Assembly: GCA_963930775.1 (NCBI GenBank) | Contig: OZ005705.1 | Location: 7,502,001-7,566,000, forward strand | Length of the DNA: 64,000 nucleotides | Direction: 5' to 3' | From: Cliona cf. orientalis | Lineage: Eukaryota > Porifera > Demospongiae > Clionaida > Clionaidae | Shown here: positions 10,376-47,800 of the stretch, piece after piece | Position numbering within the stretch: the stretch's first letter is position 1 | Layout: the number at the start of each line of letters is the position of its first letter | The notes under the pieces: model-generated | The model's input: only the letters and a program-made list of their open reading frames with translations | The model's database searches: none | What the model was told of the DNA's origin: nothing | Translations under genes and position numbers: made by a program

Positions 10376-13300
10376 TCACCGAAAGAACGGTTCTACGTGG
10401 CTAGTTGGAAACAATCCAGTTGATCCATTATCTAACATTCCATAATAAAACCCTTTTTCACGACGGTCAATGAATATCAGTACGTCTCCAGCACTGAAGC
10501 TTAGCTCTCCGTCCTTTGCAGCCTCATAGTCTTTCAAAGCTCGGTAGAAATTTGTCCCTGTCGGATTTGTGGGTGACATTTCACCACCAGGTGTGGGGGA
10601 GGAGCTTTTCTGCCGAGGCGTGGGAACCGGAGCGGCAGGGGCTGCTGAGTTTACCGTTCCATTGCTCTTCTGTAATAGATCGGACTGTGACTCCTTACGT
10701 GGAGCTGGCATCGGCTTCGGCTTTTCGGGAATGGTTGCTGATGTTGGTGTCTTGATTCCTGGTGATTTTGGGCCATTTTGCTGCTCCAGTGAATTTGAGC
10801 TAGTCTTGTTGACTGGTGTCTTAGGTGGAGGTGGTCGTGAAGGGATGCTTATTTTTCGTTTCTCTGAGGGGCTAGTCCTTGGAGGTGGCGGTCGAGAGGG
10901 AATCCCACTAGCCACCGCCTTCGTTTCTTTCTTTTCTTCCCTCTTCGCAGGAGGAACAGGCTCTTCGGTCTTCTTCTCCACTGCTTTCTCATCAGCTACT
11001 TCAGCTTTTCTTGGACGAGGCTTAGGAGCTACAGGTTCACTTTTCACTTCAAAACTAAGAGGAGCTGGCTTCTCTTTCACGATGGCCACCGCCTCTCCCT
11101 TCTTTTCAGCTGCTTTCTGTTCTGCTTCGCATTTAGCTTGCAGCTGTTCGCTGCTAACCTTCCTTGGTGGGGGAGGATTAGGCTCAGTAGCTTTGGGCTC
11201 AATGGACGATTCTTGCTTCACTTCATGTTTTACTTGCGCCTGCTCACTAGTGCTGATCTTCCTAGGAGGTGGTCTTGTGGGGGGAGGCTTAGGCTCAGTG
11301 GTAACTGCAGCTGTCGTGACTTTGGGCTCTTGAGAAAGGACAGGAGGTGGTCTAGCTGGAGGAGATCTTGGTTGCTCTGTTACAGTAGCGCCATTTTCTT
11401 TGGTATTTGGTGACAGGGGCTTAGGCACTGCAGCTGCCACGGAGCTGTGGTCCGTTTTACTAACAGGTGGCGGTCGGGCTGGAGGCGACTTTGGTTCAGC
11501 TGCAGTACCACTATCCTGCGGAGTGTCTGCTTTCTTAGTCGATGTCCGTTTGGTGGGTGGAGTCTTATTACTATTAGCTTCTGTAGCAGCTGTTCTATGG
11601 TCTGAGGAGGAGGAATCTGTAGTACCCGAGTCACGTTTCACCATCTTTTTCAGTGACTTCATGAATCCTCCTCCCCTTGGTTTGATGTCATTCCCAGAGT
11701 CACCGTTCGTAGCAGCTGCACTTCCCTGCTGCTGCTGTTGTGCTGATGCATCGAATAAGACTTTTCCTTGGCTAGATGAGCTGAGAAGTGGAGCCACACC
11801 TCCTCCCTGTTTGGCGTCAGAGGAGTTACCACTACGCTTGGTGGTCGGACTACCAGCAGCGATCGATGAAGGAGGTGGATGCTCTGGTTTTGATGGTTTT
11901 GAAGCTGATTTATCGGACTTATCTGCTGGATTGATTTGACCAATCTTTGAGCTGGTGTTTGAGGCTGCGCTAGGAGGCCTGGGGGGAGGGGGACGCTCCG
12001 GAGGAGCTGATTTAGTAGCCTTTCTATTGAGTGGGCTGTCGGTGACCAATGGTGAATCTGTCTCCTCTTTCACTACTTCCTCTGATGAAGATGGCAGCTG
12101 TTGTCTCTTTGCTGGTACTGGTGCTGTAGTTTTTGCTGATGAGCTTTCATCATTTCCAGGCAGTTTGTCCCTTCGAGTGGGGGGTGTGGTCGGTTTAGTG
12201 GAGACAGCCATCTTACTTTCGGTCGTTGCCGTTGCTGTAGTAGCCTCGCTAATAGTGGGTGGATTCTGTGGTGTGAGTCTTAATTTCTTCAAAGGCTCTG
12301 GTGTGAGGCTGCTCACTCTTGCTGGGGGAGCTGGCTTTGGTCCTCTTGGTCTTGGGACTTTCACTGGCGGTGTACTGGCATTCTGAGGAGGAGGACTAGG
12401 GGCTGAGGAAGTCTGCGGCTCAGCCTTATTCTTATTAGCAGTGGGAGGGGTTGTTCTGACGGGGGGCGGGGGGAGAGGAATGTTTGGTGGAGGAGGGATC
12501 ATTCGACTGATGGGACGCTTCACCTTTTGAACTCGTGCCTTTGCTCTTACCTTTGCTCTTGGAGGTGCGACAGGTGTGCCTTGTGATGGCGGTACAGCTT
12601 TCTTACCCTGCTGCTGAGGTGTGCTACCACCTGCAGGTGCAGACATACTCTCAGTAACCTCTGCTTTCTTTGCTATGGAACTGGGAGATGGTTTTCCCGG
12701 CTGTTTGACCGGGGGAGAGGTCAGAGTTCCTGGAGGTGGGGGAGGAGGCCTTCTTGCCGGATATTTTTGCTTCAAATCTCCAGCTGTTGCTTGTCTCTTG
12801 ACTGGCCTAAGCTTTCCTTTTGGCTGAGTGGCTCCTTTGGCTCCCGGGGCAGCTGTAGCTGCTGTGGTGTAAGATCTCCCAGATTTATCTGTTTCAGGAG
12901 CTGTTCTTGAGGGGTGTGGCTTCTTATCAGTTTCCTGTCCGGGTGCTGGCTTTGCTCGTTCATGTATTAAGGGTGAAGGGGCTGATGTTTTTCTCACTTT
13001 TGGTGATGGCTGTGCAGCTTGAGGTGATAATTTATTCACTGGACTTGCTGCAGGTTGAGGGGTGTTTGCAGTTCCCCCTGCAGGCTGGGGGGCAGCTGTG
13101 GCTCCCCCTACGGGTGGAGGGGGAGGTCTTCTCTTTGGTCTCCCAGCCACTGTTGATTTTCTTGCTTTGGCCTCTGGTCTTCTTGGAGGAGGTTCTTGAG
13201 GGGGAGATGATATCACTGGTGCCGCCTTTTGCTCGGCCACCGGCGTCTTTGACGTCTCTACTTTCTTCTCCTCGGGCATCTTTGATGTCCCTTCTTCTTT

Positions 13301-16300
13301 CTTCTCTTCAGGTTTCTTGGTGGGTGTGGCCAGAGAATCTGCTATATTAGTCACTGGCTCTTTGGGAGCCTATAATAAAGGAATAATATTATAGTTACAC
13401 TATAATTATACTGTACTAAAAACAGTACATGACAATTGTACCTGATTATCTTCCTGCGATGAGCCTGTAGCTGTGCTGGAGTTTTCGAGCACTACTGGTG
13501 CTTTTTCAGTTGGACTCAGTGTTTCAGCAGGTGCAGCAGATTTCTCTGCCGTGGAGCTACCACTCTGTTCAGTGCTGGCTTTTCTCTTCTTTAATGCCTT
13601 CAAAAGTTCATTTTGTGGCTCAGACTCTTTATCTTGTTTGGCTTTTGCCAGTCGCTCGTCGATACTCAGTGTGGCCTCTCGACCAATGGAGTTACGACGA
13701 ACAATAGCAGATGCCAGCTCATCTATGAAAAATAAAAAAATATACTTTCACTCCTCTCTCTCTCTTCAACTTGATATCAACTCACTTTGAATATCTCCAC
13801 CTTCACTGCTGTTTGGAAGCAGCCTTTCATTGTCTGGTGATGCTATTTCAGCATCTCTTCCTCCCAACTCAATCTCTCCCCCTTCTCCCTCCCCAGCACC
13901 ACTCACAGCTGCAGCTTCACTCACAGACGCCTCTTTCTTTTGAGAAGGACTCTCCTGCGCTCGGTTAGCTGAAGGGCTACTCTTGTTCTTGTCTCGAGAC
14001 TTTCTTCTCAGCGACCATCTTTTCCTAAAGGAGCTCCTTGAGTCCTTCTCCTCCCCACCACTCTCTCCTCCCTTCTCTTTCTTGGTCTTCCTCTTCTTGA
14101 TGGCAGCTGTTAGTTGGCTGGCTAGGTTTCCGTCCTCCTCTCCCTCTGCCCCTGCTTCTTCTTGGGTCAGTTGGACGGGAGAGGCTAACACACTGCCAGC
14201 CTCAGAATTCTCAACCACAGGCTAGAGAAGAGGGAGGGGAAAATGAACCGTGATAGCTTATACATGTATTATTCCTTCATAAGGTCAATTGTGTATAATA
14301 GCTCAATCTGAGTGTAAAGCTCTCAACCTATGTCTAAATAGCTTCCTACAAATAAAATCGCTGATTCTCACCTCAACGTAGGACCCTGGGAACCATCCCT
14401 GTGCGCTGCCAGCAGACCCGAACCACCAGCCATTCTCATCAGCCCAGTAGACGAGCACCGTCTCTCCCTCACTGAACCGAAGGTCTCCCTGGGTTTCTGA
14501 CTCGTAGGAGAACACAGCTCTGTACTCGGACGCCTCAAGATCATCCCCTGTGCCAGGGTGAGTGGATGAGTATGAGGATAGAACAAAGAGAAGCATGAAC
14601 TAAGCATTTTATTATAGTGAAGAGCGAGCTACATGTATAATTATCATTGAAATTCTAGCTACAGACACGAAAAAGACAAAGTCACATGATAGTCACCTGA
14701 TGCCATCATCTCGTCCATCCCTCGAGGCTGCTCCACCTGCTGCCGCTCCTCCAGGGAGGCGGTGGCATTGGGGGCGTGGTTTGACTCCGGCTTTGTTGTC
14801 TCGGCCTTGGGGGCGGGACGTACGTAGGACTCCGGGAACCAGCCGACCTGTCCCTCGCAGATCCCCTTCCACCATCCGTTCTCTGCCTTTTCTATCACCG
14901 TGACAACGCTGCCCTTCTTGAACCGAAGTTCAATGTCTGTGGAGCCACCAAACTCATACTTGGCTAGGTACTTCTCACTTATCAAGAACTCGGCGCTGAC
15001 ATTCAGAGTTTCCAATTCCTATAATTATTCCAAAACGCATTCAATATTTGCATACACTGAAGTATTAGAGCAGTAGTGTGTTCTATAATCTTGTATATAC
15101 AGTAAGTTTACAATTTGTGACTAAACACTGTCCGGTTTGGTTGACAAAACAACAAAAATTGCACAAACTGTGATTTTTCTTGCTAAAGTAAATATTTTCC
15201 TGTCTACCACATGTAGGTCACCAATGTTACACAGCATAGCCAGTAGATGTGTCACACACCTCTCCTCTCTCTTCTCTGACTCACTCCACTCTCGTGCGCT
15301 ACAACTGACCTTGCTAACGTTTGCTTCATTATTGTCCTCCTGGCTGCTCCCCGTCTCCATGGCAACCTTGTTGGTGATGACCTCGGAGGCGCTCCTCTGG
15401 CTGGCGGGGGTGCCAGGTTGACTGCCGCCCACGGAGCCGGGGGCAGAGTTCGCGATGACCATTCCTGCCACAAGTCCATCAGGGGGAGGCTCAGTACTAC
15501 AGTGTGTGTGTGTGGGGGGGGGGGGGGGGGGGGGAGGGGGGTGTAATAATTAGAAACATCAGTATTGTAGGTAATATCCCAATGCTACTACAGTAGCCTC
15601 GAACCCCCCGAAAGTGAGCCTGGGTTCGAGGCTATACGTTGACTTACTCCTGTAAATAGGGTTTGTCCAACTTGGTGACCATCTTAGGGGTGGAGTCAAT
15701 GTCCCTGCGGCTGAACGTCTGGGCTCTCTTTGGTTTAGCGTCGACCTCTGTGTTCTCACGTTTCTTTCTTGAGAGTGAGGGGTGGCGTGTGCTGAAGGAG
15801 GTGGAGGCAGCTACGATAGCAGCTGCTGCCAGTTTGAAGTTTTCTGAAGGAAATAAAAAGAAAGAAGTGTAGTCACAAATCTATGAAACTACTACTCTGA
15901 GGTAGATAAAATGGAGAGAGCAAAGAAAAAAGGAGGAGGGAGAGAATAGGGGGAGAATAGGGAGCTTTACTTACCAGCTTCTCTCTTCTTCTTCTCTGCC
16001 TCTACGTCCACGTATTTGACATAATTCTTGGGGAACCATCCTTCTCCCTTTCCCTCCACGGCCCCCCGCCACCAATCCCCCCCATAGGGGGTCTCCTTCA
16101 GTGTCACCCAGTCACCGATAGCCAGTTGCAGGTCACCTTCGTTCTGCGGCTTGTAGTTGTACAGCGCTTTGTAGTTGGGAACTGCATAAGGACAGACTAA
16201 CATAATTACATGTACATGCCTTATGAGTAGAAATGATCGATGCATTAAGATATGTCCGAAAGAGAGAGATATTTTGCTTGATATGTCCGGCAAAAGAAAA

Positions 16301-16722
16301 TATTTTGCTGGACATGTCCGGCAGAGAATATTTTGCTAGACATGTCTGGCAAAGAGAATAATATTATGCTAGCTGGCAGAGAGATATTCAGAGGATATTT
16401 TTGCTGGACATGTCCGGCAAAGAGATATTTTGCTAGACATATCCGGCAAAGAGAATTTTTTGCTAGATATTATCCGGCAGAGAGATATTTTGCTAGACAG
16501 AGGATATTCTGCTTGACATGTCTGGCAGAGAGAATTTCTTACTTCCAATGATTGGTTTTGAAGGATTGATGGTTCCCAGTTCGATCTTGGAGGTTTTGGC
16601 CAGGTTGTAATGGTTTTTACTTCGCCTCTTCACACACACTGCGATGATCACCAGCAAAAGGATCAACAAGATGACTCCAACGGACCCCCCTACAGCTGCA
16701 CCAATGATCACTGCTGTGTTGT

Positions 16723-16795
<73 letters not shown>

Positions 16796-19700
16796 TGAGG
16801 GAAGGAGGGAGGGAGAGAGAAGAGTGAAAATACATGTACGTTGTAATTCTATCTTCATTCTGCGTACCTTTTTGAGAAGGTACTGGTGTGTTTCCAACAG
16901 TTGTAGACTCTGGCATAGTGGGTGGAGCCATGGTATTGGGAGGTGGAGGTTCAGTTGGAGCATCTACTAGCACTGCCACTCCTCCTCGCTCACAGACCAC
17001 ATTTCCGGATGACATCATAGCTCCACCCATTTGCTGAATCAGCAATAGGGGGTTGGAGTTGTTCCCCTGTTGAAAGACAGCCCCAGGTCCAGAGAGAGGA
17101 AGGTTTGAATCGGTGAAGACGGCTCTTAGGCTAGCACCAGCCATCTGGGGGAGAAGGAGGACTCCATGTTTAGAGGTGAGGTCTCCAGCTGAGCAGGCCA
17201 GCTGGTTGGTCGGCGAGCATAGGCCAGTGTTGCTACAAAGTCAAAATAAAATTTGATCACAATCATTGTACTAACTAAGCTATGAAATTAATAAAATGTT
17301 TGCAATTTACAGTACGGCACTATATGAATCATAATAATATTATAAATACCTTGGAAAGGCATCAACTATCAGTGAACCACAGTCGGCTGGACTGATAGCT
17401 CCTGGGGTGCCCTGGGTAGGAGGCATTCTCAAGCTCCACTCAAAAGGCACAGCCATGCCAGAGTCACCGTCCATTTGCCTAGGCAGCCTTCTCCTTTCAT
17501 CCACACCTCTTCTCCTTCTTCCTGAAGGCATGTTGGTTGGCTCCACTGATACCGAGGGAAGAAAATAAAATTTCATTTTTAGCTGTAGATTAAAGCTTAT
17601 ATGTACATGTGTACATTCGACATGCCAAAAAAGGGTACAGAGCTACAAGACTAAAAAGCATACCTGTGACTTCATCGCTAAATGGCATCAACAAGCTATT
17701 GCCACCACTTCCAACGTCGATGGTGGAAGAGATCAAAGGTGAGGGGGAGGGGCTTGGGCTTGAGATGGGGGTGGGCTCTGGTCGTATCTCCAGCTGAGAG
17801 GTGACAGACGTGGGAAGCTCCTGGGCTGCAGAGGACGTGAACGGCTGGAGCAGGGAGACAGAGGATGATGTCATCATTACAGAGCTAGTTGTCATGGTGA
17901 TGGGATTGGTCGTCATGATAGTAGCAACACTTGAAGATGCTTCATGAAATTCAGTTGTAGCTACAGTAGTGGTTGCCATGGTAGTGGTAGTTGGAGTCAC
18001 CTCCAATGGCGTTGAGCTAGATACCACTACTGGAGGTGGCTGAAGCATTTGATTCACGACTATTGCCACGGTGATAGTCGTCTCAGCATATGGGTCATCA
18101 GCAGGCTGCGAAAAAGTCACGCTTCCTGAAAAACTGTCCGAAGTGAAGTTAGTCACAATCTGTAAGATCTGCCTCGTGCGCTGAATATCACTACACAACG
18201 AGCGGCTGCCACCCTGGTCGTCTAGGTGAATCACGATCGATCGACCAATCACAGAGAAGGGGCCAAAGAGAGGAACATTGGGATCAGTGTAGTTAGCTGA
18301 TATCTCATCCAATCCGGACAGACCTCCAAACTTGCCACTGAGATCACCAATCTCAAACTGATCACTAGTTCTACCCGGAGTAGAGATATTGGTGGGATTC
18401 CAGTGCCCTCCTGTGAATGTTGCACTGCACTTATCGGGCGAGCCAAGGCTGGGAGGACCTACGGGATATTCGTGAACGTGGTAGCCATCGAATCTTTGCT
18501 GCAGACCACTCAGTGAGACTGAGACTTGAGTTTGATCGTACGGCGAACGCTGGTAGAATCGAACGCTGCCAGAGACCCCCTGATCATTGAATACGCTGAT
18601 TGCCTCCAGCGGCTGGTACTGGGTGAGATTGGCACAGTCTATCCTTGGGCCACCACGGTTTTCTGCGTGAATCACAGTGGATAGACCATCAATCGAATAT
18701 CCATCAATATCTGGAAGCACGGGGAGGTCTGTATCTGTGTAAAACTGTCTAATTCGCCTGTTCAGCACATCAAAGGGGGCACCCTTATTTGACAGATCCC
18801 CAATCTCACAATTTCTCTGCAATGTGGCATTTGCATTTCCACAGTTTACTGCGTAGCTTGGATCGCTAATATTGACTTCACGAGGATTGTAGTGAGGGCC
18901 AGCCACCGTACAGTCCATCCCGGCTCCATCGAGGGGTCGATCGTGGACATGCCAGTTGTGTAGAGTTGAATTTGCTCTATCACCGCCTACTCTCTCTAGA
19001 TTGGTATAGACTGATGAAGTGGAGTTGTCTGGGGTGTGCTGGCGAAAGAAAATGTCGCCTTTGAAGGAGTTTCTGAACGGAGAGTAGAGTATTGAACCAG
19101 AGACAGAGGTGGGGTAGCCAATATTAGCACAGACCAGACGACTGCCGTTAGCAAAATGGATGACGATTGAGCGTCCAATGATACTATTCACTCCATACAA
19201 GGAAAGGAATGAGTCACTGTATTGCAAACTCAGAGGATCGGTTTGGGGGAAACCTCCGAACTTTCCACTCAGGTCACCGATTTCACAGTTCTGTGGAGAT
19301 TGCGTGCTGCAGTCTGTGTCGTAGTTTGAATTTTCAGCGGCCCCCAGGGGGTCAAAGTGGCCCCCCGTGATTTCTCCTCCACAGGGGGTCACTGTCCCGT
19401 CGTGAGGAAAGGGGTACTCGTGTACATGCCAGGGGAATGGAAATGCGTCGCTAGGGAAATCGCTCAATCCTGCAAGTGATAAAAACTCAATAATTAACAA
19501 ATCATCGACAATTTTCGTGGTGGAAAACTTAAGAAGATCACATGCATATACATTCTCCACAAAATAAACGAATGAAACCTTCCAACACCTGCCCGGCCAG
19601 GATAATCCGTGCTATATCCATATATGTACTCATACTCAGATAACTCTCAAGATGCACAGCCTATAGCTACACGTACATGTACGTGTGGGGTCGAAGGTTA

Positions 19701-20123
19701 GTGAGGGTGTGCATGAATCAAATTTGTCAGAAAGCAAGGAATTTGGCATCTTCGGGCACGAGCAGGCTACACAAGAATGCACACTGTGTGCACCAACACT
19801 ACAAGAGATCAATGGCCGAAGGAATGACAGCCAAACAGCCGTGATAACACAAGATGACCAGGGAAATATGCCAACAAGTTTCCCATTTCAAATTCAATCG
19901 AGTAATTTGTTCCGTCTCCTCTCTCTCCCTCCTTACCTGTCAAATTCACGTCAATGGTGGTGTTTCCATCAGGAGTTTCTTGTGTGAACCTTATCATCCC
20001 ACTGATCCCACTCTGGTTGAAGGTGGCAGTGACGCTGAGAGCGGCTGAGGTGCTGAGAGGAAGGAGAGAGATGACCACAGAGATCACAGAGAGTAGAAAT
20101 CCGTTACTGTAACGTCTTGTCAT
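10376..20123 (-). CDS. Transmembrane copper-only SOD repeat protein with four cytoplasmic SH3 domains
   Basis: Exons, 5' to 3': 19937-20123, 17664-19469, 17350-17545, 16868-17232, 16543-16722, 15975-16181, about 15648-15791, 15310-15464, 14697-15018, 14372-14547, 13786-14221, 13442-13722, 10376-13369; about 2,480 residues. Order: signal peptide; three Cu/Zn-SOD-fold domains (about 27-200, 200-360, 360-495) each keeping four copper histidines (His77/79/100/167; 236/238/255/330; 393/395/418/477) and the active-site Arg, with zinc histidines missing as in copper-only SODs; half a fourth SOD, a Ser/Thr-rich stalk (about 537-664), polybasic RRRR (674-677), the degenerate second half; transmembrane helix (855-879); SH3 domains near 912-970, 1090-1150, 1192-1246 and 2420-2482; a proline-rich region with repeated PPARPPP-type SH3 ligands. 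The expected role is superoxide handling outside the cell coupled to scaffold assembly inside; that coupling is inference. The seventh exon is uncertain in frame. Confidence 0.8.
15514..15534. repeat. G21 homopolymer in an intron
   Basis: Uninterrupted run of about 21 G on the plus strand (poly-C in the sense strand of the SOD-SH3 gene), preceded by a short GT repeat. It lies in the intron between the exons ending at 15648 and starting at 15464. Confidence 0.85.
16236..16540. repeat. Minisatellite with GGACATGTCC-type palindromes
   Basis: Eight or nine degenerate copies of a roughly 28-bp unit (TTTTGCTGGACATGTCCGGCAAAGAGATA type) within the intron between the transmembrane exon and the first SH3 exon. 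Many copies carry the palindrome RGACATGTCY: exact decamers at 16310-16319, 16338-16347 and 16406-16415, others with one or two changes. These decamers match the p53-family half-site consensus RRRCWWGYYY. Confidence 0.8.
16725..16793. repeat. (GA)n microsatellite acting as polypyrimidine tract
   Basis: About 34 GA units on the plus strand, hence (CT)n in the sense strand of the SOD-SH3 gene. The tract runs directly into the CAG acceptor of the transmembrane exon (exon starts at 16722), so it is the intron's pyrimidine tract. Confidence 0.85.
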
Positions 20124-26595: not shown

Positions 26596-29500
26596 TCACT
26601 GTCTCCCTCGAGCATGGCAAGGGTCAAGGGTCACAAACACAGTCCTCATTTCTCCCTTGCCCTTGACGTTGACAATCTTGTGTACTTCGTGGGAGACAAA
26701 CGGCGCTAGTCGCTCGAGACAGTGCTCTGGCATGTGGATCTTGTTAACGAGCCCAGTAGTGTCCATTCGACTGGCGACATTCACCGTGTCCCCCCAGATG
26801 TCGTACAGCATCTTGTGACTACCAACTACCCCTGAGGTAACGGGGCCGTAATTGATCCCGATTCGCATACGAAAGACGAATCCATGACGGTTGACTTGTT
26901 CGAGAACGTCTATCAAGTGCTGAGCAAAGTCTATGAGCTCAGTGAGGTGATGCTCGTCACAGGGCTGATCGGGAGGTAAGTTGAGACCAGACGCAGACAT
27001 GTAAGTGCTTCCAATCGTCTTTATCTTTTCGATGTTTGAGAACTGAGGGAGGTCTAGGAGTGTGTCAAACTCGGTGATGATCTGATTCAAAAGACGAAGT
27101 ACGTCTTCGTGATTGTGGTGCGAATTGAGAAACTCGCTGAAATTCACGATCGATGCAAACATGACTCCGACACACTCATGGTTCTGTGAAAACTTTCCAG
27201 TCATTCGGAGACTGTGCGCCACGTGTTGGGGGATGATGTTGAAAAGAAGCCACTCTGCTTGAACCTTCTTTTGACGAGTGAATCGTCTTCTAGCGGAGGC
27301 CTCCAGTCGACTGACAAAACTTAGACGATCGGAAGTCTCGGACATTCTATTCACGACAGTAAGCAAAATAAGAACGAGAAGTAGCAGAATACTCACTTCT
27401 GGTGCTACGTGGCGCGTGTAGTAGCGCTTGAGATAGTCAGGTATGCCACTGATTGGGATGTCTCGTTCATCATCACCTGGAAGGGGGATCACGGTCGCAG
27501 CAGGTGTAGGCACCTCGGTGGCGGTAGAATTGACGTTGCTTATGCAAAGCTCCAGGTGAACACCGATCAGCATGGAGATGAATAGAATACAGCTGAGAAA
27601 CCCACCAATCAGTTTTGCGATGTGACTGACACCCATGAACGTGATGCTGCTCATGAGCACGACCACGGTGACAAAAAAGGCCATTTGGACGTGAGCCAAG
27701 CCAGGTATCGTCTCCGAGATGTCCGTCTGACAGCGAGAAATGCTCACCAAAACGATCGTCATGGGGTAGTAGATCATAAAAAGACCGACCATCGAGCGAA
27801 CGAACCACTGGATGATGAACTGGGAGAAATTGACAAACCTCGTGGGGAAGAGGCTCGGCATGAACACGACAAAAACAAAGAAAAGAATGATCAGTTCAAC
27901 GATGAGACCGAATAGAAAAATGCCGAGCCAAGCAGACCACAGGAAGCTGAATGCTTCGTCCGAGCTGAGGCAGACGGCACTGCCAATCATGACGAGGAGG
28001 TAGCTGACAAATAAGGTACAGGTGTCCACCATGTAGCTCTGCTTGGCAATACGGAAGCCAAGCTGGGTCTCAGTCATTTCTCCATCAGATCCTTCGTCAA
28101 GATCTCTCCCATAGTCTCGATAGGTAGCTTCCAAATCGGTGTCTTTAAAGTTAAGGGTGATGACTTTCAATTTTGGATCAAAGTACGTGTCAAAGTTCAC
28201 GTTGTGTCCCTCCATCAGCTCGACAATCTTTCTATCCATCACGTCTACTCCACTGTTGTGGTGCTGCGGCACGGCCAGCTCAGCGTAAGACGTGCACTTC
28301 TGCAGCTGCTTCTGTTTTGAGAAGATATCAACGATGGAGCTGGAGGCCTGACGGTCCCTGGCCCCAAGGGAGTGTCGAGGCGAGTTGATCTCTCCTCTCT
28401 TTGTCCTCATGAAGGGGCAGAGGGGGCTGGGTTCCGATTCTTCGACGGCTGTAGTGGGAGGGTAGATACGCACGGGAGAGGCAGGAGGTTCGGAAATTGT
28501 ATCAATGTCATCATAGGCTTCGCCTGATACTTGATTCCTCCAATCAGAGATCATAGTGCCGCTGCCACCGTACCCTTGCGATCGTCTCCTTTGACCTCCG
28601 TTCACATAGAACAGCTGAAGCTCAGACAATTCGGCATCTTTGCGAGTGATCTCGGCATCTTCGAGAGTGAAGTTGCTGGTTAGGTGTGATTTCGTAATCG
28701 ATGAAATCAAAACGCGTCCTGGCGATCCAATCGACTCGATATGATTGGCAATTCTGACGTCCTTCGACCACACATCAAATTTGAATCGTTTGGTTCCCAT
28801 CACCCCACAGTAGACCGATCCGGTGTGAATGCCGATTCGCATTTTAATTGGGTGGCCGGTTCTTTTCCGAATATCCTCCAGAGCATCGATGATGGCAAGG
28901 CCCATGTTGACACAGTTGTCTGCATGGCTAGGTTCAGGCTCAGGACAGCCAGAAACACAGAAATAGCAGTCTCCAAGAGTACTAATCTTCTCACAGTTGT
29001 GCTTAGTAACAAGATCATCGAATGTTGAAAAAACTTCATTCAAAATTCCCACAAGTTCGGCAGCCGAGAGGTCTGACGAGAACTTTGTAAAGTCCACGAT
29101 ATCGGCAAAGAGTATGGTGACGGTGTCCATGCTACAGATAGTGAAAGGAGCGGAGAGGGTCTGGAAAACGGGATCGAGGCTCTCCTCTCCCTCGAGGTCA
29201 AGTTTCTGCTTCAACATGAAAGTCAGTTGATTTTCAACCTTCATCAGTTCGTCTGCAAAGGGCTTGGGCATCATCGAGAGGATCGTTTTCTCCTTCAGTT
29301 CTCTCTCGAGCTCAAGAGCCTCCTGGGAGAGGACACACTGAGCTATCTTCCAGAAGGTGGCGTGTTGTCGAATATCGAGCAGATAGGCAGTGCTGACCCC
29401 AGCTAGGATTAAGGTGACGTAGAACAGCACTCGACCGATGAGAGAGTGGACGTAGACGTTCATGGGGTACGAGTCCTTGTGACTTTGATACGCAAGAAAT

Positions 29501-30615
29501 CCCACCAGTAGCTCGAGAATGATAATGTAGACAACGGAGAGGGCGAGGGATACGACAACGGGCATGCGAGAGAGTGAGAATATCGCAAGAATTACAATCG
29601 CTGTGAGAGCAAATTGTGCCACGAAGGACATTGTGAGGAAGCCTTGTGTATCGGAGTCAAAGTAGAGCGCCAAGGCTAGAGCGAATGAGCACACCATCAG
29701 CACCAGCGTGAGAGAGACGGAGAGAAAAAATGCGATACAGGTGACCGAATAGATACGAGTGAATGTTGACACAAAAAAGAATCCCACGATGACAAATAGA
29801 ATGACGGCACCGACGACATAGCCGGGGCTGTACTGGACACTAGCGTACGCCAAATTGCTGCTGGAATCTTCCCCCTGTGTGCCAGGGTCTGGGGTGAAGG
29901 GGATGTTGACTGAAAAGAACACTACCCAGAGGAGGGCAAATAGGCCGATGAACATGAGCGCTATGCGGAACCGTCGGCGAATGAATTCTATGACGATTTT
30001 GCCGAAATGCTTCTCTATGATTGTCGAGTTAAATTTCGGTATCCACCAGTTCTGAGTTGGACTGGGGCACGTAAACTTGGCCGCATCAGCGAGCTGGCGC
30101 GAAGAGCCGCCCATGCTCGAACTACGCTGGAACGAGCGACCGCTTTCATCTTCCATCGAGTGTATATCCATAGACGGGCGTCTGTACGACTGGTACATCA
30201 ATTCGACGTCTGGTACGGGCACGTTGTTCAAGTTGATCTCGGGAGAGCCTCGCTGGTTGATTATGATCCCGCCGCTGTTTACCATCTCTACGATCGAGGG
30301 TCGGCGAATGTCGACCAGCTGCGCGGCGTGCGAAGGGTAAGGATAGCCGCCGCCTCCTCCTCGCTCCGACATTGGGAGACCGCTCATTCCGATTCCTCTA
30401 CCACCAGGTAGACGAGAGTTGAACACAAAGTTTCCCAATGAGGCGTTTCGACCAAACGAATTGGTAGCGCTGCCGTAGGTGCTCGAATTGAGAACGACGC
30501 CCGAGTCTCGCTGTATCGGCTTCTCATCATCGGCGGCCGACTTTGGCGGTTTATTGTCGAGAGAGATCGAGTCGGCATTGCTCTCTTCTATCGTGGGGCT
30601 TTTCTTTGACGACAT
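26596..30615 (-). CDS. ADCY9: Membrane adenylyl cyclase, type-9-like, intronless
   Basis: Makes cAMP from ATP downstream of G proteins at the plasma membrane. One open frame of 1,339 residues. A disordered N-terminus (1-190) is followed by six membrane helices (about 217-413), catalytic domain C1 (about 496-645) with the two metal aspartates in FADIVDF (Asp505) and LGDCYF (Asp549), a linker, six more helices, and C2 with WLLFNIIPQHVA, FASIVNFSEF and the IWGDTVNVASRMDTTG block carrying the catalytic Asn and Arg. The C2 blocks FASIVNFSEF and IEKIKTIG-YM-ASGLN resemble vertebrate type 9, hence the symbol; orthology is not proven. The absence of introns in 4 kb, amid intron-rich neighbours, suggests retroposition or intron loss. 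Transcribed toward RPS3A. Confidence 0.93.
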   Translation of the reverse strand: MSSKKSPTIEESNADSISLDNKPPKSAADDEKPIQRDSGVVLNSSTYGSATNSFGRNASLGNFVFNSRLPGGRGIGMSGLPMSERGGGGGYPYPSHAAQLVDIRRPSIVEMVNSGGIIINQRGSPEINLNNVPVPDVELMYQSYRRPSMDIHSMEDESGRSFQRSSSMGGSSRQLADAAKFTCPSPTQNWWIPKFNSTIIEKHFGKIVIEFIRRRFRIALMFIGLFALLWVVFFSVNIPFTPDPGTQGEDSSSNLAYASVQYSPGYVVGAVILFVIVGFFFVSTFTRIYSVTCIAFFLSVSLTLVLMVCSFALALALYFDSDTQGFLTMSFVAQFALTAIVILAIFSLSRMPVVVSLALSVVYIIILELLVGFLAYQSHKDSYPMNVYVHSLIGRVLFYVTLILAGVSTAYLLDIRQHATFWKIAQCVLSQEALELERELKEKTILSMMPKPFADELMKVENQLTFMLKQKLDLEGEESLDPVFQTLSAPFTICSMDTVTILFADIVDFTKFSSDLSAAELVGILNEVFSTFDDLVTKHNCEKISTLGDCYFCVSGCPEPEPSHADNCVNMGLAIIDALEDIRKRTGHPIKMRIGIHTGSVYCGVMGTKRFKFDVWSKDVRIANHIESIGSPGRVLISSITKSHLTSNFTLEDAEITRKDAELSELQLFYVNGGQRRRSQGYGGSGTMISDWRNQVSGEAYDDIDTISEPPASPVRIYPPTTAVEESEPSPLCPFMRTKRGEINSPRHSLGARDRQASSSIVDIFSKQKQLQKCTSYAELAVPQHHNSGVDVMDRKIVELMEGHNVNFDTYFDPKLKVITLNFKDTDLEATYRDYGRDLDEGSDGEMTETQLGFRIAKQSYMVDTCTLFVSYLLVMIGSAVCLSSDEAFSFLWSAWLGIFLFGLIVELIILFFVFVVFMPSLFPTRFVNFSQFIIQWFVRSMVGLFMIYYPMTIVLVSISRCQTDISETIPGLAHVQMAFFVTVVVLMSSITFMGVSHIAKLIGGFLSCILFISMLIGVHLELCISNVNSTATEVPTPAATVIPLPGDDERDIPISGIPDYLKRYYTRHVAPEVSILLLLVLILLTVVNRMSETSDRLSFVSRLEASARRRFTRQKKVQAEWLLFNIIPQHVAHSLRMTGKFSQNHECVGVMFASIVNFSEFLNSHHNHEDVLRLLNQIITEFDTLLDLPQFSNIEKIKTIGSTYMSASGLNLPPDQPCDEHHLTELIDFAQHLIDVLEQVNRHGFVFRMRIGINYGPVTSGVVGSHKMLYDIWGDTVNVASRMDTTGLVNKIHMPEHCLERLAPFVSHEVHKIVNVKGKGEMRTVFVTLDPCHARGRQ

Positions 30616-30947
30616 GACTGAGTTCAGATCTCTCGAGCAGACGGTGGATCTTTCAGCCCTTCGCTACTGCGGCTATTATTGGCAGTGCTGCATTTCTACT
30701 TCCCGATTCAATTTATTAGGGAATAGTAATGGCGTGTTTGTGGACAGAAAGGTATGCTTTGGCTGCCGAATCTTTTGTCCCCGTATTAACTGCGCATGCG
30801 CAATTAATATCACACAGTATGGTAGCACAATAACGAGAATGATGCGTGAAAAAGAAAGGTTGAAAATTAATGTCAGTTTTTGTAACCCTATAGCAGAAGA
30901 AAGTTCTTTGATTTTTTAATAATCCAGTTTATTAAATATCACAATAA
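30616..30947. other. Cyclase promoter and 3' flank of ISWI
   Basis: Tandem arrangement: ISWI ends here and the cyclase starts here, both on the minus strand. A GCGCATGCGC palindrome (NRF1-like, near 30791-30800) lies about 180 bp upstream of the cyclase ATG. No coding feature supported. Confidence 0.45.
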
Positions 30948-38821: not shown

Positions 38822-41800
38822 ATGGACTTAGAGCGCTGCATCAAACTGATCAAGAATGCGAAGACCGATAACGAGATGATGGCTGCACTGATGCTAGTAA
38901 GTACTATAATAATTATGAATAATAAGTTATGCCTGGGAGATCAGAGTCTCGCCATAGAGATCTGACTCGTCTCTTGCAGGTCGCAAAGTTGGTCAATTCC
39001 AGCGATATCGGAGCTGATGGTCGCAAGAAGATCTTTGATGCAGTGGGATTTTCCTTCATCAATAGATTACTGGCTACAAGTACGTGCATTCACGTGGTAA
39101 CCTCATTCACACAGGATAGCTAGGAGCCCAGTGCAGCGTGGTGGTTCTTATTCTACCTCATTTTGCAGATAAGCCACCAGAAGGATGTGCTGAAAATCCG
39201 TATCATAAGATAGCCGTAACCATACTAGCCTGCTTTTGCACTGATCCGGATCTTGTGAGTCCCTTATTGAAGATTCAAAATCTAACCCCACGATGACAAT
39301 TTTTTTGTTGTATGCGCAGGTAGTCCATCCTCAAATCACATCAAAGATTCCAACATTTAATACTTTCATCCTAGAACAGCCGTGAGTTTCTCAACAGCTG
39401 CCATGGTCAGTAGGGTATGTTAACAGCTGAGCTGCTTTCTTGTTACTATTCAGGGCCCCTGATACTAAAGTTGAAAATGACAGCTGCACAGTGGCTAGTG
39501 AGTCCCTGCAGTGTCTTCAAGCTCTAAGTTCATCAAAAATTGGAATCCTGCACCTTTTGAGACACAGAAGTCCTGAAGCGCTAGCAAAAATTATCACGAC
39601 ACAAGCATCAGGTTCAGTCTCTGCAGCTGTGCTTTATTTGTATCATGCTCTCATTAATTTTATACCATAATGATCGTTGTAGCTGTGAAGCCAGAGGCTG
39701 CCAAAGATCTGCTGCTGTACATTCTTGGAGATGCAGAAGCTCAAAGTGCCAGCAACTACTGCACCACTGCTTCAAATGTGCTGAGCCTACTGGCTAAGAA
39801 GTTCAATGCCACCCAGGCGAGTTAGTACATTATACACAATAATTTAAAGATGATAAAATAATTTTGTTTAGGATGAACTGAAATTTACTCTCTGTGATAT
39901 TTTGTACTCAATACTGTCACTGTCAGGAGAGCCATTGGTGAGCTCAGAGGCTACATTCATTTCTGTAGTCATTTATTTTGCAACCATCTCTCTCTCTCTC
40001 TCTGTAGCTGCAGTCTGCTGAGTCAGTGTCTGTTCGTGATACTGGCTGGCTTGGTGACATCGCTGGTGGTCTTCAAGCCATCCTCACTAGCAGACTTGAC
40101 CCGGCTAGAAGGAACAAGGCTCTCCATCTGGCAGCGATGCTCACCCATTTGCTGGGAGTCAGCTGGGCTGCTGAGGTGAATGTCAAGTTCTTCATGATCC
40201 TAGTCAACTTAGTTGCTGTGGTAAGAAGGAAGGATATAATATTATTTTTACGTGAATGAAGTAGAGAATTATTGCACCCAATAGGAGCTGAGACTATTGA
40301 CTGAAGGCCAGGAAATGATGCAGATTATTGAAAATTCTCCACTTCTTTGCTCGTATTTCATAATCCTTGAGAATTCAGTGGTCTTTATCTGCCATCAGTC
40401 GGACCTGGCTGAGACAAATGCAGGTACACGGAATGCCTTAACTCTTATTCTTAATTTTTTTTGTTCTCTCTCTCTCTGTCAGAATGCTTACTAAGTCAAG
40501 GAGACCTCTCCCAGATTCACACTACCCTCACTGAAGCATTCACTTGTGTCATTCGCATCTTACAAACATTCAAAGAATCATCTTCCAGTGAAGCTAGTCG
40601 TAGCGCTGTTGAGAGTGCGGAGTCACTCACCACTGCAGCTGTGCGTGTTCTTGGAGCGTGGCTGGCCGAGGAGACACTAGCTCTCTCCAGCGATGTCTAT
40701 CACTTACTGCCTTATCTTCTCGAACTCTGTCACCATCGCCTCATCACTCAGCAAACTGAAGACTTGCTTAAATTTCTTCTCCCCGGTCTGAGTCACTTAA
40801 CTGCCGAAGATAAACCAAGGAGGGTTCTTCTCAAAGCTGAGCTTCAGAAGCTGTTGCTAGCCTACATGCAGCATCTAGTCCCTCTTCACCAGTCATCAAG
40901 GTAGAGCTACCCAGTACCATGAGTGGGTGATTTTGCAATTATGGCATATACCGTAAATCTGAAAATTTTCGTTGTAAAAATATTTTTGTAGTCAATGGCA
41001 GCTACGAAAATTAATCTTACGAAAATTAGTGTGCACTATTAACGCTAATGCGGTAAGGGGTCGTTCCTACGAAAAAAAATTTTTTACACGAAAATTTATC
41101 ATACGAAGGTTTCTTTACACGAAAATTTCCAGATCTACGGTATAGCTATCGTTATTACATGTAGTGAGTTATCTGGGCGACTGGCTCTTGTCTGTGAGGT
41201 GTTGACTAATGTCTGTATCACTGAGTCTGATGCAGTGAAGGCTGATGAGATATTTACCTCCATTGCTGTTCTTTCGCTTCAAATCAGTAAGCCCCCCCCC
41301 CCCCCCCCCCAAGCCCCAGCCCTCCACTCCTCCAAGCTTGGTTTTGCTATGACACTATTTTCTATGCAGTGAAGGAGAAAGAGTGTTCTAGATTGAGCCT
41401 GAGTGCAGCTCTGCTCTCTCTACTCATCATCAGAAGACAAGGTAATGCTTACAGTTGTATATCTAGTCCCCATATTACTACAGTGATCGTTATGATCTGC
41501 AAGTGTAATAAAATAAATAAAGTAAAATTTATACAGATTCCTGTAACTTTATATGCATTGTATAATCACTATTCGATGGGCCTGTATGGTGTGGTACATT
41601 TCTCTATCACTCTATAGCACCTCTCTTCTCCATCTGGGTGTAGCTCGGTGTACAAGTTGAAGGCATGTCTCTGAAATGATCCCCCTCCCACGAATATGAT
41701 ACACTTTGCCTTCACCACTAATACCTCCTGTAGCATGGCAATGTAGCCGCCGTCCGTGGTGTGGGCAACTGTCTCAAACGTTCTCTCCCATTCACAAATG

Positions 41801-44800
41801 TCCATCTTTCCGTGATAAACCTGACGCACAAATGATTCCATATCTGTCAAGTGATTGAAGTAGTTCTTCAGTCCGAAGCTGTGGCTGCCATACTTGCCGA
41901 TGTCTATCGAGAGAAAGGTATTTCTGAGGCCCGACTTCCACTGCATCCACTCCATAGTCTTCATGGTCAGCTGGAGGCAGTATGGTATGATGGCGTGGGA
42001 GTCATTGCCTTGCTTGAGGCTCCTGGTCAGTCCTGTCATCTCGTATCTCGCAATAATGGCAATATACTCTGAGCTACTACTACTGCTAGTATTGCTGGTA
42101 AGACTGTTATTTGATGCAGCTGTGGTACTATCTTGAGTGAGAAATCGCTTGGCATATGCCTCGGCATCTTTGAGTAGACGTTGACTTGGCTTCAAGTATT
42201 CTCTATAGGGGTGCTCCTCTCGGCAAAAGTCACCCTGTAGTAGTATCCTTTGGTTTTCCTTAATACCTCTCCATTCATCAAAGATTATGGTCACATTTCC
42301 CGGCTGGTACTCTCCGAGAATATCTGAATGAAATTGCTCCAAAGAGAGCTCATCGCCTGTCAAGAAGTTGAAACAAACTTTTCGCACAACTCTGAAAGAT
42401 TTTGCTCTGAGAGCCGTACCCAGCTTGCCGCTGCTGGAGAGCATTTTGAATCGGCACCCCTCTTTGTATTCATCTCCCTGGGGAGGGTGGGGGAAGGGGA
42501 GGCCTTGGCTGCGTATAGCTTTCACATGTGTCAGTGTCGGGTACTTAATCTGTACGACAATGACATCTCTAGGAGCATTTCTAACAAAGTGATACCAGTC
42601 AACGAGAGGGGCGTACCCTAATTTGGCTGTGTGTTGGCTCCAATCACCCATATCAAAGGTATCATCGAGCGTTAGCATGGTGTAGTGTTTGGTGTCGTCC
42701 ATGGGGGTGCTGAGAAAGGAGTCTTTCATGAATGGTTTGACCACAGCCAGGTTGAGGAGCTTAGCCCAGCACTGCAGCTGCATGAGATTCCCCGACGCCA
42801 TCGTCTGCTGTTCGTAGATCTTCAGTGCAACGACAAAGCCAGCTGTCTCAGTGTGTGTTGGCTGAAAACTAGCTTGCCCTTTTAGCTCATTACTATTTCT
42901 CTCATTTTTACTTCGATCCGGTGGAGTACTATACTTCTCTAATTTCTGTTGCTGAGTATCACTACTCTCAGTACTAGGCACCATCTGTCTTAACGTTGGT
43001 GGATGTATGATCACCTCCTGACCTGTGTCAGTTCCTGTGTTTGCTGACTCAGGGCTCACCGACAGCTTGTCTGTTGGCCTCTGAAAGTCATCTTTACGAG
43101 TGAGTATATTTGCCTCCAGCACAACTTCTGTTGGTAGACTAGCATCTTGGTAGTTGGGAGAGTGAAGTTCTGTGGTAGTTTTAGCATTTTGAAATCTTGG
43201 TCCAACTCTAGAGGGTGGAGCCAGTGTTGAGTAGATGTAAGTTGAACTCTCGTATTGGTAGTAAAGACTGTAGTTCATGAAACACAGTAGGACACTGACT
43301 AGTAGGCAGAATACGAGCTTGAAGGCGCCAGCATAAGTCATCACTTTGGTCACCACAAACTATAGCATCCATACACACTAATAACAACTAGCTAGTGCAT
43401 GAAAATACTACCTATATGCTGGGCTAGCCTCATGAAGCATTCTAGGGGCAGAGAAATGTTTGGAGACTCCAGCATGGCACCTGGTTACTCAGCAACTATC
43501 ATGGAATGCATGTGCACTGCTATACAGGAAGCACCATTCGTACAGCTGTTAATTTGTTTACAGACATCACCAAGCTAAGCAATATGAGTTTGCTTTTTAT
43601 ATCAGTCATTTGCTATGCCAGCCTGTGCCCAATATATACTTATAGTGATAATGCACACTCAATAAATAAATAGAATCTGATATGGCTATTGGTTGTCCAT
43701 AGGTAGGTTCTTGTCAGTTGTACACTCCTTGATGATCCTGATGCACCACTCTTCCTTTGGGCGTGAAGACTGGTACAGATTCAGGGCATGTTTCTGAAAT
43801 GCTCCTCCTCCTACAAATATCACGCACTTTGCCTGCACTGTGATCATTTTCTGCAGCAGTGCGATGTAGCCAGAGTCGTTAGTGTGGGAAGTGTCTTCAA
43901 ATGTTCTCTCCCACTCATGAATAGTTAGCTTGCCTCCATAAAAATTCATAAAAAATTTGGCAAATTCTTCACGTAGATCGCTACTATCTCCAGTATTCCT
44001 AAAGCTGTTACTGCCATATTTTCCAATATCTATGGAGAGAAATGTCGTCCCTATTCCACTTTCCTCTACTAGCTTTCTCGTGTACTTTATCGTCTGTTCG
44101 AGGCAGAAGGGCACAATTCCTTCACGCTTGTTGAAGGATAGTTTTGACTTCTCCAGTCTTGCCATCACTGCAATGTATCCTCCTCCAGTGCTGGACTGCT
44201 GCAGAGAGGCTGACAGTGGAAGGCTGTACTTTGAATGGTTACTACTGAGATAGGTGGAGACGTATTTGTTGGCATCATGATAAAGTCTCTGGCTTGGGTG
44301 CATATTTTCTTGTATACCAGTATTGACACAGCCAGAGTCCTTCACCAGTATGCGGCCAACCATACCCAGCCCTCTCCACTGTCTGAATATAACTGTGACT
44401 TCATTTGGCGAATAGTCTCCAAGTATTGCATCACGAAACTCCCTCAGGCTGAGGTATTTGCCGTATTCAAAATTTAGGCATACTTTTCTCACTATGGTGA
44501 AGTTGTGTGACTCCAACATGGCAATTTGACCAGATTTTGGCCAACCTGTTTGTGGCTCACACTCTATTTTCACCTGCAGCTGTTTGGGATTTGCTTTTAG
44601 TTCAGCCTGTTTTTTGTGCACGTCCTTGGAGTAGGCATATTTAAATTCAACACTAATCACCCGCCTTGGTGCTTTAACTAAGAATTCATCCCATGGCACC
44701 AGTGTAGAGTGGTTTAGCCTCACACTCTCTCTGTTCCAGTCGCTCATATCAAACATTTGGCTGTATCTCAACCATTTGGGCGTGGCTGATGAAGGTAGAG

Positions 44801-47800
44801 TGCGGACAACTGAATTGACGAGGAATGGCTCGACGACCTTCATATCCAGCTTGGCTGCCCAGCACTGAAGGCTTTGTAAGTTTCTGCAGCCAGAGTTCTG
44901 TTGCTCCCAGTAGTCATCAGCTAGCACATATCCACCTACACCTTCAGTAGCTGGTCGTTTCAGCTCCGTAAGTTGTCGTTTTAAAACATTGGCTCGATTT
45001 TTTGAACTTGCTCTTTGATGGATTTCTTGTCTTCTATGATCACTGCTGAGAGATTTTGCTACTTCAGCAGCTTCAATTGCTGTCTCTTCGAGTGTAGTGG
45101 TCAAAAGTTCTTTGTCTGTCATTTTTGATGGTCCCACCTCTCTCAAGTGTGTGTTCGATCTGCTCAGATTCCCATAGTTTAGCACAATTGTGGTGAAGAC
45201 AAAAGCACTTAAGATGAGTAGTTTTCTCCAGAATTCTGCTGCCATCCTAGCTATATTATTGTACTACAGCTATAGCTAACTATGCCCTATGACTAACAAC
45301 TTCATACACATGCAGACCACAGCTATCATCGGTGCATAGCTGTGTTGATGGGAATTTTTGCTTGCCTGGTACAAGCAGGCCAAGCAGCTGGGAGTACATC
45401 AGTGCACAAATTTACCAATTAGTAACATTCCACTCTGGAATTTGTGTTTCTGTGGCACCTCTTGGTAACAGGCTGTGCCATGTTTTATCTCACCTAGGTC
45501 TTCTGTGTATGCCGTGTAACTGACATAGCTATTAGAGAGTGTAATCAAAGCTGCATGAAGGAAAGCTAGCTCAGCCTAACGATGCACTCAGGAGTCAAGC
45601 CTTTACTGCTTCGTTTGCTTGGGCTGATCTCTCTCATTGGACTGTATGTGGCTGTCATAAACATTGAAAACTCTTCAGATTTAGCCTATTTGGACAAGAG
45701 AAGCAAGCTGGGTGATTGGAAGGGCAAGGAGTTCATTGATAACCTATACGCCTCTCTGAATGATGTTCAAGATGTTGATAGAGAGCAGGCGTCAAAAACT
45801 GTCATTTCAGCTGCTGCAGCAAAAGTGGTTCATTTTGAAAATGTGAAGAATATTGATTATCATGATCCTCATTTGGTGATACCTGGGTCTCTGAGAATAG
45901 AGCATGATGATGATGATGATGATATTATGCCAACTAAGAAACTGCAAATACAACCACTCCGTAACCTTGAGTCACTTAAATACAGTCAGCAGCCAATGAT
46001 AGACGGCCCGCCTCACTTCTCCAATATTCGACTATCCAACACAATCTCAAAAGCTCGAGAAATAAGCAAGTTGGAATCGCCCATCACTAAAGGCTATGTT
46101 TTAGCCGTCAACTACTATGAGCAGCAAAGTATGGGGTCTCGGAATCTATTCCAGCTTCAGTGCTGGGCCCGTCAGCTGGGCTTGGCAGTGGTTAAGCCAG
46201 TGATGAAGGATTCATTCTTGCTGACTCCACTGGATCAGCATCAGCAACAAACATTTCTCAAATTCGAGGATTCCTTTGACTTGAACGAATGGACCCTACA
46301 GAGCAGTATTTCACAGTTTGCTCCACTAGTTGAGTGGTCCGAATTCCTCTCAAATGCTCCAAGGAACGTGATACTTGTGTCGTACAACTATCCTAGCGTT
46401 AGTGTGCTCAAGACAAGGCAGAAGGCTGGTGAGCCAGTATTACAAGATCACATTGGTGAGAGATATAAATCAGGCTGTAGCTCCAAATGGCCGACGTCTT
46501 CACAGCTTTCCTTTCTCGGCTCAAACGGCTTCCACGTTGTGCGTACAGTCTGCTTTAACTTCTACTTTGGAGACCAGCTGACGATAGATGAATTTAATAC
46601 CCATCTTCTGGGGGAGCATCGTGCGAGTAATGTGACGATCATCATGGATATGTGGAGAGGTCTGGGCACAGGACAGAGGGTGCTTATTAAAGACACCTGC
46701 TTCACCACATACCCCATCAATGAACACATAAAGCTTAGCAGCAGATTGCTTGGCGACGCTTCCAGGTACATAGAGGCCCACCTGGGAGGTCAGCCGTTTA
46801 TTGCAGTGATGGGGCGACTAGAAATGACTCTTCTTACCGTACACAAGAAGGACCAGCCTATTGTACCATATTGCTTGAAAGAGATTGTCTCTGAGCTTGA
46901 ACTATTCAAGAAGGATACTGGCCTCAGTGCCACATTCCTCTCCATTGATATTGGGAAATATGGAAGTAAAAAATGGCGGGCTAGAGTCGATCCAGATCTT
47001 AGACATGATTTTAGTAGCCTCGTTCAGAACATTTACGGCCCTTCTGCATCAATCAGTAGCTGGGAAAGAACTTTTGAGGACATAGCGATGACAAAAGATG
47101 CTGGTTACATTGGACTGCTCCAGAAGGCGATCGTGACCCAGGCAAAGTGTGTGCTGTTCGTGGGAGGTGGAGCATTCCAGCGGCACGCACTGCACCTCTA
47201 TAGGCAGCTACACACAAGGAAGGAGGAACAGTGTCTCAGAGTAGTCAATTCATGCACTAGTCCAACAAAATTTAGACTATAGCTCTAGCTATTGCTAGCT
47301 ATAATATTATACAGAATCTGATATTAATTTTGACTATCTCTACATGTAATATTTAACTAAATAATAATATATTATTAGTGTGCCATGGGGTGGCTATCTG
47401 TGTGTTTTTCTCCGCATAGGTTTGCAATGCCTAACCACAAAAATGGAGAAATCAGAGCAGATGCTGTCATGGCGTTGGATTCTTCAGCTGCTGTTAGATG
47501 CTGTGAAGCTGTATCCACATGCATCAACTATATCACACAAATCATCAGTTTCAGCCGTAGACTCTCACTGCCAGTGGACTGACATTTCAGAGCTGTGGTT
47601 TCTTGCAGTGCAAGGTTAATTTGAAGAAAAATCCAGCCTTTTCTGTGTCAAATGAAAATTGTTATTTTTTCCCAGAATTGAGTGCTTTGGTGACACATTC
47701 TCATCAGTTTGGTGCTGATCTCCTCCAGGTGTCCATGTCAGAAGGCAACAGTGTCATTGTGCAGCAGTTTGCTGATGTTTTGAGAAGTCTAGTTCAGCTT

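Follow-up and report, generated by a model that had tools for sequence, protein, structure and literature searches.

The window, by which we mean the whole 64,000-nt stretch of Cliona cf. orientalis DNA that was analysed, carries on its minus strand a predicted gene at 10376..20123. By spliced translation, the gene was modelled with 13 exons and 12 GT-AG introns, running from exon 1 (20123-19937) to exon 13 (13369-10376), with the stop codon ending at 10376. The spliced frame encodes 2,510 amino acids and contains zero internal stops. An earlier note on this DNA had proposed that extracellular copper-only SOD repeats are joined here to intracellular SH3 domains. Its coordinates, domain list and phase statement for 20123-10376 were borne out by the 13-exon splice. 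All elements that it listed were recovered, but the list had omitted a degenerate fourth SOD domain and the minisatellite nature of the intron 16542-16182.

The SOD ectodomain and related loci

The predicted protein starts with a signal-peptide-like N-terminus (aa 1-27; 20043..20123, minus strand, as for all features below) with a hydropathy of 2.05. The hydrophobic peak covers aa 9-27 and ends STSA/AL. As judged from Kyte-Doolittle hydropathy, the only basis used, the signal peptide named in the earlier note is thus present as a signal-like sequence. It is followed by three SOD domains connected by short linkers. SOD domain 1 comprises aa 28-180 (19117..20042, with the intron 19936-19470 inside), SOD domain 2 aa 186-345 (18622..19101) and SOD domain 3 aa 350-493 (18178..18609). 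All three were detected with the Sod_Cu profile (PF00080), which matched three stretches of the spliced ectodomain (7.2e-38). The corresponding genomic matches scored 64.7, 30.2 and 31.1 bits, each of them alone above the family cut-off of 28.9.

Complete copper ligand sets had been claimed for these domains, and four histidines were indeed found in each: H77, H79, H100 and H167 in domain 1, H236, H238, H255 and H330 in domain 2, and H393, H395, H418 and H477 in domain 3. In the alignment of domains 1-3 (three rows), the copper histidines and the E..D pair of EIGD were invariant. The positions of the zinc ligands were assessed by eye, using the residue numbering of SOD1. The best solved match of SOD domain 1 was the copper-only SOD5 of C. 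albicans (1.3e-17). HVH, the two further histidines and the E..D pair of this fungal enzyme (4N3T) align with the domain, but the solved SOD5 chain has a single SOD domain, no repeats and no cytoplasmic part. In the alignment with SOD5, the stretch from the last His to the last Cys is short and the long electrostatic loop is absent. An AlphaFold2 model of SOD domain 3 built with 3 window rows reached a mean pLDDT of 46, which is too poor to use. By most features tested, the ectodomain is that of a copper-only SOD repeat protein (CSRP), in line with the wording of the earlier note. We infer that SOD domains 1-3 would bind copper and turn superoxide into H2O2 at the outer surface of the cell.

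The fourth SOD domain is split into two parts, both placed by hhalign to domains 1-3. The first part (aa 497-538; 18043..18168) contains no Cys. In the second part (aa 697-813; 16983..17450, with the intron 17349-17233 inside) the copper histidines are lost. When the fourth domains of the window gene and of a paralog on contig C2 were combined and compared with the profile of SOD domains 1-3, hhalign gave 96.1% (E 3.1e-9). The two parts are separated by a 158-aa insert (aa 539-696; 17451..18042, with the intron 17663-17546 inside), which is absent from the C2 paralog. The insert is mucin-like: of 151 residues counted, 46% are Ser, Thr or Pro. It also contains the polybasic segment RRRRGVDERRRLPRQ (aa 674-688; 17475..17519), in which a motif match revealed a putative furin-like RRRR site at aa 674-677; within the ectodomain, RX[KR]R is matched by RRRRGVDE alone. 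From aa 488 to 720 there are zero Cys residues, and therefore no disulfide within SOD domain 4 could span a cut at RRRR. Disulfides from SOD domain 4 to cysteines of domains 1-3 may still hold the halves together.

Across the assembly (216.8 Mb, 149 contigs), the Sod_Cu profile matched eight times. Three of these matches belong to the gene described here, two to the C2 gene, one to a locus on C12 and two to a locus at C17:1.86 Mb. The higher score of the C17 locus suggests an ordinary Cu/Zn SOD. The C12 locus shows an ORF of 254 aa which, as judged by eye, contains one SOD domain plus part of another. In the same assembly, a Wnt profile gave 10 matches that are spread over three contigs and agree with three genes, which marks the genome as that of an animal; the demosponge Amphimedon has three Wnt genes, and the count would thus suit a sponge.

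The C2 paralog (L009), which is closer to the window gene than the other CSRP locus (C12), resembles the window gene in having three complete SOD domains and one degenerate SOD domain, and two of its introns lie at corresponding places (by eye). It differs in its length of 707 aa, in an uninterrupted SOD domain 4 without the insert, and in lacking the transmembrane exon plus tail. Where the window protein has a transmembrane segment, the paralog ends in a hydrophobic, GPI-signal-like sequence with no cytoplasmic part (by eye and from hydropathy). None of the 30 SH3 matches listed for the genome lay near C2:8.06 Mb or C12:5.79 Mb. On these features the C2 paralog looks like the ordinary form, and the window gene like one that carries a transmembrane exon plus SH3 scaffold where the paralog has its GPI-like end.

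The transmembrane segment and the SH3 tail

Only one transmembrane segment was found (aa 855-882; 16631..16714), with a peak hydropathy of 3.19. In the translation it is followed by KRRSK (16616..16630), basic residues of the stop-transfer type, and so agrees with the helix and basic residues described earlier. A GPI anchor was rejected here, because the hydrophobic stretch of the window protein belongs to exon 5 and has the basic residues and further open frame after it.

Four SH3 domains had been reported, and profile searches detected all of them, as three stretches within aa 912-1513 and one at the C-terminus. SH3-1 (aa 914-969; 16009..16176) is encoded by the class 1-1 exon 16181-15975 and was also found when searched alone. 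SH3-2 covers aa 1124-1176 (14815..14973) and SH3-3 aa 1223-1275 (14219..14527, with the intron 14371-14222 inside). After SH3-3 comes a basic, serine-bearing segment, SSFRKRWSLRRKSRDKNK (aa 1337-1354; 13982..14035). A long proline-rich region, recognised by its composition and encoded by a single exon, follows at aa 1514-2446 (10571..13369); Pro accounts for 19% of the residues over aa 1514-2450. SH3-4 (aa 2453-2510; 10379..10552) extends up to the stop codon, was likewise found alone and is the only Pfam match from aa 1514 onward. The part after exon 5 (1,599 aa) contains 46 PxxP motifs, with 11 matches to the class I pattern and 5 to the class II pattern.

The best solved matches of the SH3 domains were GRB2 and mixed families. 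SH3-2 and SH3-3 also matched p47phox (Neutrophil cytosol factor 1; 1ng2, 4.1e-14, and 1wlp, 1.0e-12, respectively), though GRB2 and sorbin scored better. In the genome, six of the 30 matches listed for SH3-1 to SH3-3 were the gene itself, and the 24 others were 30-49% identical, with only the best candidates scored. No named SH3 family (SORBS, CD2AP, POSH, Tks or p47phox) was accepted for the tail, the similarity being not specific. We also rejected the notion that the tail had been copied from intersectin, endophilin or Abi; these three were recognised by eye elsewhere in the genome. With the multi-SH3 scaffolds SORBS/CAP, CD2AP/CIN85, intersectin, POSH and Tks4 the tail shares several SH3 domains and long linkers, and POSH and Tks4 have one SH3 domain at the C-terminal end, as in the window protein. 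These scaffolds are cytosolic and carry RING, PX, EH or coiled-coil parts instead of a membrane ectoenzyme. Yeast Sho1 has one SH3 domain and no enzyme ectodomain. According to PMC4411306, Sho1 likewise sits in the membrane and carries its SH3 domain on the cytoplasmic side, but it has four transmembrane domains.

The joint between the two halves

The SOD and SH3 halves are connected by intron 5 (16182..16542), which is 361 nt long and consists of a minisatellite (~16540-16248) and unique sequence (16247-16182). The minisatellite is dispersed: the genome gave 103 matches, among them the site of the query itself. Without the satellite, ~66 nt of unique DNA remain. This is an ordinary intron size here, two other introns of the gene measuring 63 and 72 nt, and it would leave very little room for one gene to end and another to begin.

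The phases are compatible exactly as the earlier note had stated, the exon end at 16543 leaving one base and the exon start at 16181 supplying two. Both the transmembrane exon 5 (16722-16543) and the SH3-1 exon 6 are of class 1-1, that is, phase 1 at either end. With a score of 8.59, 16543/16181 was the best of 25 in-frame donor/acceptor pairs between the transmembrane segment and SH3-1; the runner-up (7.05) uses the same acceptor. The donor score at 16543 was attained by 2.5% of GTs on the minus strand of the window. For the acceptor at 16181, the evidence varies with the model chosen. A first, position-specific matrix gave -1.09, a score attained by 29% of AGs; it had been built on 13 sites, probably overfits and was replaced by a pooled pyrimidine model. 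With the pooled model the acceptor reached 1.35, attained by 6.1% of AGs on the minus strand of the window, which is a middling value, introns 7, 8 and 9 scoring lower. The training set of either splice model comprised 13 introns, of which the same predicted gene model had supplied 11. When the arrangement was placed at random 20,000 times outside the gene, such a donor was met in 16.3%, such an acceptor in 11.9% and an equally good in-phase pair in 0.75% of cases, the last figure applying to the second acceptor model and to window sizes of 131 and 30 nt that we set ourselves.

Based on these observations, the single polypeptide proposed in the earlier note stands as the best-supported model, carried by the clearly best in-frame joint with its good donor, the two class 1-1 exons, the ~66-nt spacer and the 0.75% figure; the joint itself is still a prediction. 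Two alternatives bear on it. In the first, both forms would be made: retention of intron 5, or early polyadenylation, would yield a short-tailed CSRP and splicing the long SH3 form, the tail being an optional module. Read through the donor, the exon 5 frame stays open for 16 aa before a stop ending at 16493, and thus retention of intron 5 would still give a complete protein. Neither AATAAA nor ATTAAA occurs in intron 5. Since both are also missing from the 576 nt that follow the stop codon of the gene, their absence from the intron carries no weight; in the paralog only one ATTAAA was seen in 600 nt past the stop. We regard the production of both forms as unlikely, yet worth keeping in mind.

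In the second alternative, the minus strand would carry two neighbouring genes. One would encode a transmembrane CSRP whose short tail is read from the satellite. The other would encode a cytosolic scaffold with four SH3 domains and start either at an ATG (16203 or 16245) or in a further 5' exon not seen here. Both ATGs are in frame and precede exon 6 by 22 and 64 nt; the nearer one has an A at -3. The 16-aa extension of exon 5 up to its stop would provide the first gene with an end, the C2 paralog exists without an SH3 half, and the first acceptor model scored 16181 poorly. Against this stand the rarity of such an in-phase pair by chance, the little unique DNA that is left between the halves, and an alternative tail that lies largely in satellite. 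Two separate genes are therefore improbable in our view. That SOD and SH3 halves belong to one gene, always or in some transcripts, is probable on the predicted splice. For the complete reading, namely one gene encoding a type I membrane protein with a CSRP-type ectodomain, a single transmembrane helix and an SH3 tail of ~1,600 aa that would mainly position the ectoenzyme, we estimate a probability of about 60%.

Comparison with animal CSRPs and possible roles of the tail

Animal CSRPs were first described in 2018 and, according to the main text of PMC13017621, their function has "largely remained enigmatic". The same text describes them as secreted or GPI-anchored, a location given there as a prediction and not as a definition. 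It attributes SOD activity to an oyster CSRP and mentions that some CSRPs without a copper site may act otherwise than as SODs. The words sponge, Porifera, transmembrane and SH3 do not occur in this main text. Compared with the animal CSRPs as described in that source (CUSR in fish, SOD4 in amphibians), the window protein shares the signal-like start, the tandem SOD domains with short linkers, the full copper ligands, the E/D pair and the predicted extracellular location. In contrast to them, it has a transmembrane segment and a tail of ~1,600 aa with SH3 domains and proline-rich sequence, not a GPI signal or secretion, and its last repeat is degenerate and split by a mucin-like insert. Thus the ectodomain is CSRP-type, but the whole protein, with its transmembrane segment and predicted long cytoplasmic part versus a GPI end, is a variant and no plain member of the family. 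Among the papers listed by literature searches that covered few subscription papers, no transmembrane or SH3-bearing CSRP was found. Searches with tblastn confirmed no relatives with the joined layout in viral contigs (SH3-2 and SOD queries) or prokaryotic contigs (SOD and SH3-1 queries), collections that say little on animal relatives.

For the preferred one-gene layout, a mechanism can be proposed in which the copper-only SOD domains would convert superoxide to H2O2 outside the cell, and the tail would bind proline-rich partners and/or other SH3 proteins. Such SH3 and proline-rich contacts might place the enzyme at endocytic, adhesive or oxidase-bearing membrane sites, where there is a superoxide source or membrane remodelling. 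The tail would then mainly position the ectoenzyme rather than relay a ligand signal. A tail that only positions the enzyme fits as well as, or better than, receptor signalling. The terms receptor-like and signalling to actin had been inferred for this architecture in the earlier note; the presence of SH3 domains is by itself no indication of actin, and any outside-in signalling would be hypothetical. As to a superoxide source, the NAD_binding_6 domain occurs in NADPH oxidases among other reductases. It was matched at 10 places in the genome, possibly representing fewer genes, which suggests such a source, though the domain is not specific to NADPH oxidases.

A true receptor would go further than positioning. 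Its SOD-fold ectodomain would bind a ligand, or react with superoxide or H2O2, and thereby alter the assembly of the SH3 scaffold inside the cell. The single-pass layout is consistent with this, and the CSRPs without a copper site mentioned above would offer a precedent for SOD folds acting otherwise. However, the three intact copper sites argue for kept catalysis, and beyond SH3 and PxxP no signalling motif was found. We consider a true receptor doubtful. In a further version of it, cleavage at RRRR would give two chains that the split SOD domain 4 keeps together, in the manner of furin-processed receptors. The sole RX[KR]R match falls within the insert, a part missing from the paralog, and the cysteine-free stretch leaves no disulfide internal to SOD domain 4 across the cut; both points would suit such a form. 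Any disulfides between SOD domain 4 and domains 1-3 would speak against it. The protein would in this case be a furin-processed two-chain transmembrane SOD, in which the split, copper-less SOD domain 4 acts as a snap joint, linking a catalytic ectodomain that can be shed to the membrane-bound SH3 scaffold, an idea that we put forward as speculative and rather improbable. If it were true, one molecule would control extracellular superoxide and H2O2 handling as well as SH3-dependent assembly inside the cell. Such a receptor-enzyme hybrid is not described in the literature searched.

Quite improbable, finally, is a role as partner of an NADPH oxidase, in which the SH3 domains of the tail would serve as organiser (like p47phox and the Tks proteins) and superoxide made outside would be turned into H2O2 at once in the same complex: the p47phox matches of SH3-2 and SH3-3, the NAD_binding_6 matches in the genome and the basic serine-bearing stretch after SH3-3, which we take to recall the autoinhibitory region of p47phox, would favour it, but the SH3 similarity is not specific, and a profile search of the cytoplasmic part detected no PX domain. 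The 0 matches of p22phox (PF05038) in the genome carry no weight here, coming from a search run without a positive control.

If the single-gene model holds, the cell interior could determine where superoxide is dismutated outside, or receive reports from that reaction. An SH3-wired CSRP would offer a handle on the function of CSRPs through the partners of its tail. It would also be an example, probably from an early animal branch, of a gene whose ectoenzyme part is followed by class 1-1 exons for a transmembrane segment and an SH3 domain.

Neighbouring reading frames in the window

An adenylate/guanylate-cyclase-type frame runs uninterrupted for 1,355 codons on the minus strand (26599-30663). 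A Pfam scan of its N-terminal 675 aa detected one cyclase domain (PF00211, 2.9e-53). No introns interrupt this frame, in contrast to the nearby SOD gene, which has 12. Further along the window, at 41572-47279, three long ORFs resembling paralogs were observed, two on the minus and one on the plus strand (596, 525 and 570 codons, measured stop to stop). Their N-termini are hydrophobic as judged by eye, and the two of the three that were scanned gave no Pfam match at E 0.01.

CSRP-like and candidate SH3 loci elsewhere in the assembly

The third CSRP-like locus (L010, on contig C12 at 5.79 Mb) is represented by a 254-aa ORF (L010 3567-4331), in which one SOD domain and part of a second can be recognised by eye. 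Contig C7 has a 200-kb stretch (1.92-2.12 Mb) with seven SH3 matches, all weak and each in an ORF of ~80 aa; they may represent a tandemly arranged family of genes with SH3 domains.

A dispersed minisatellite

The minisatellite at 16248-16540, which fills most of the predicted SOD-gene intron between the TM and SH3-1 exons, has a unit of about 28-31 nt and is dispersed over many places in the genome assembly. Many matches lie within ~141 kb of contig coordinate 1 (e.g. on C1, C6, C9, C11, C12 and C13), as subtelomeric repeats would.
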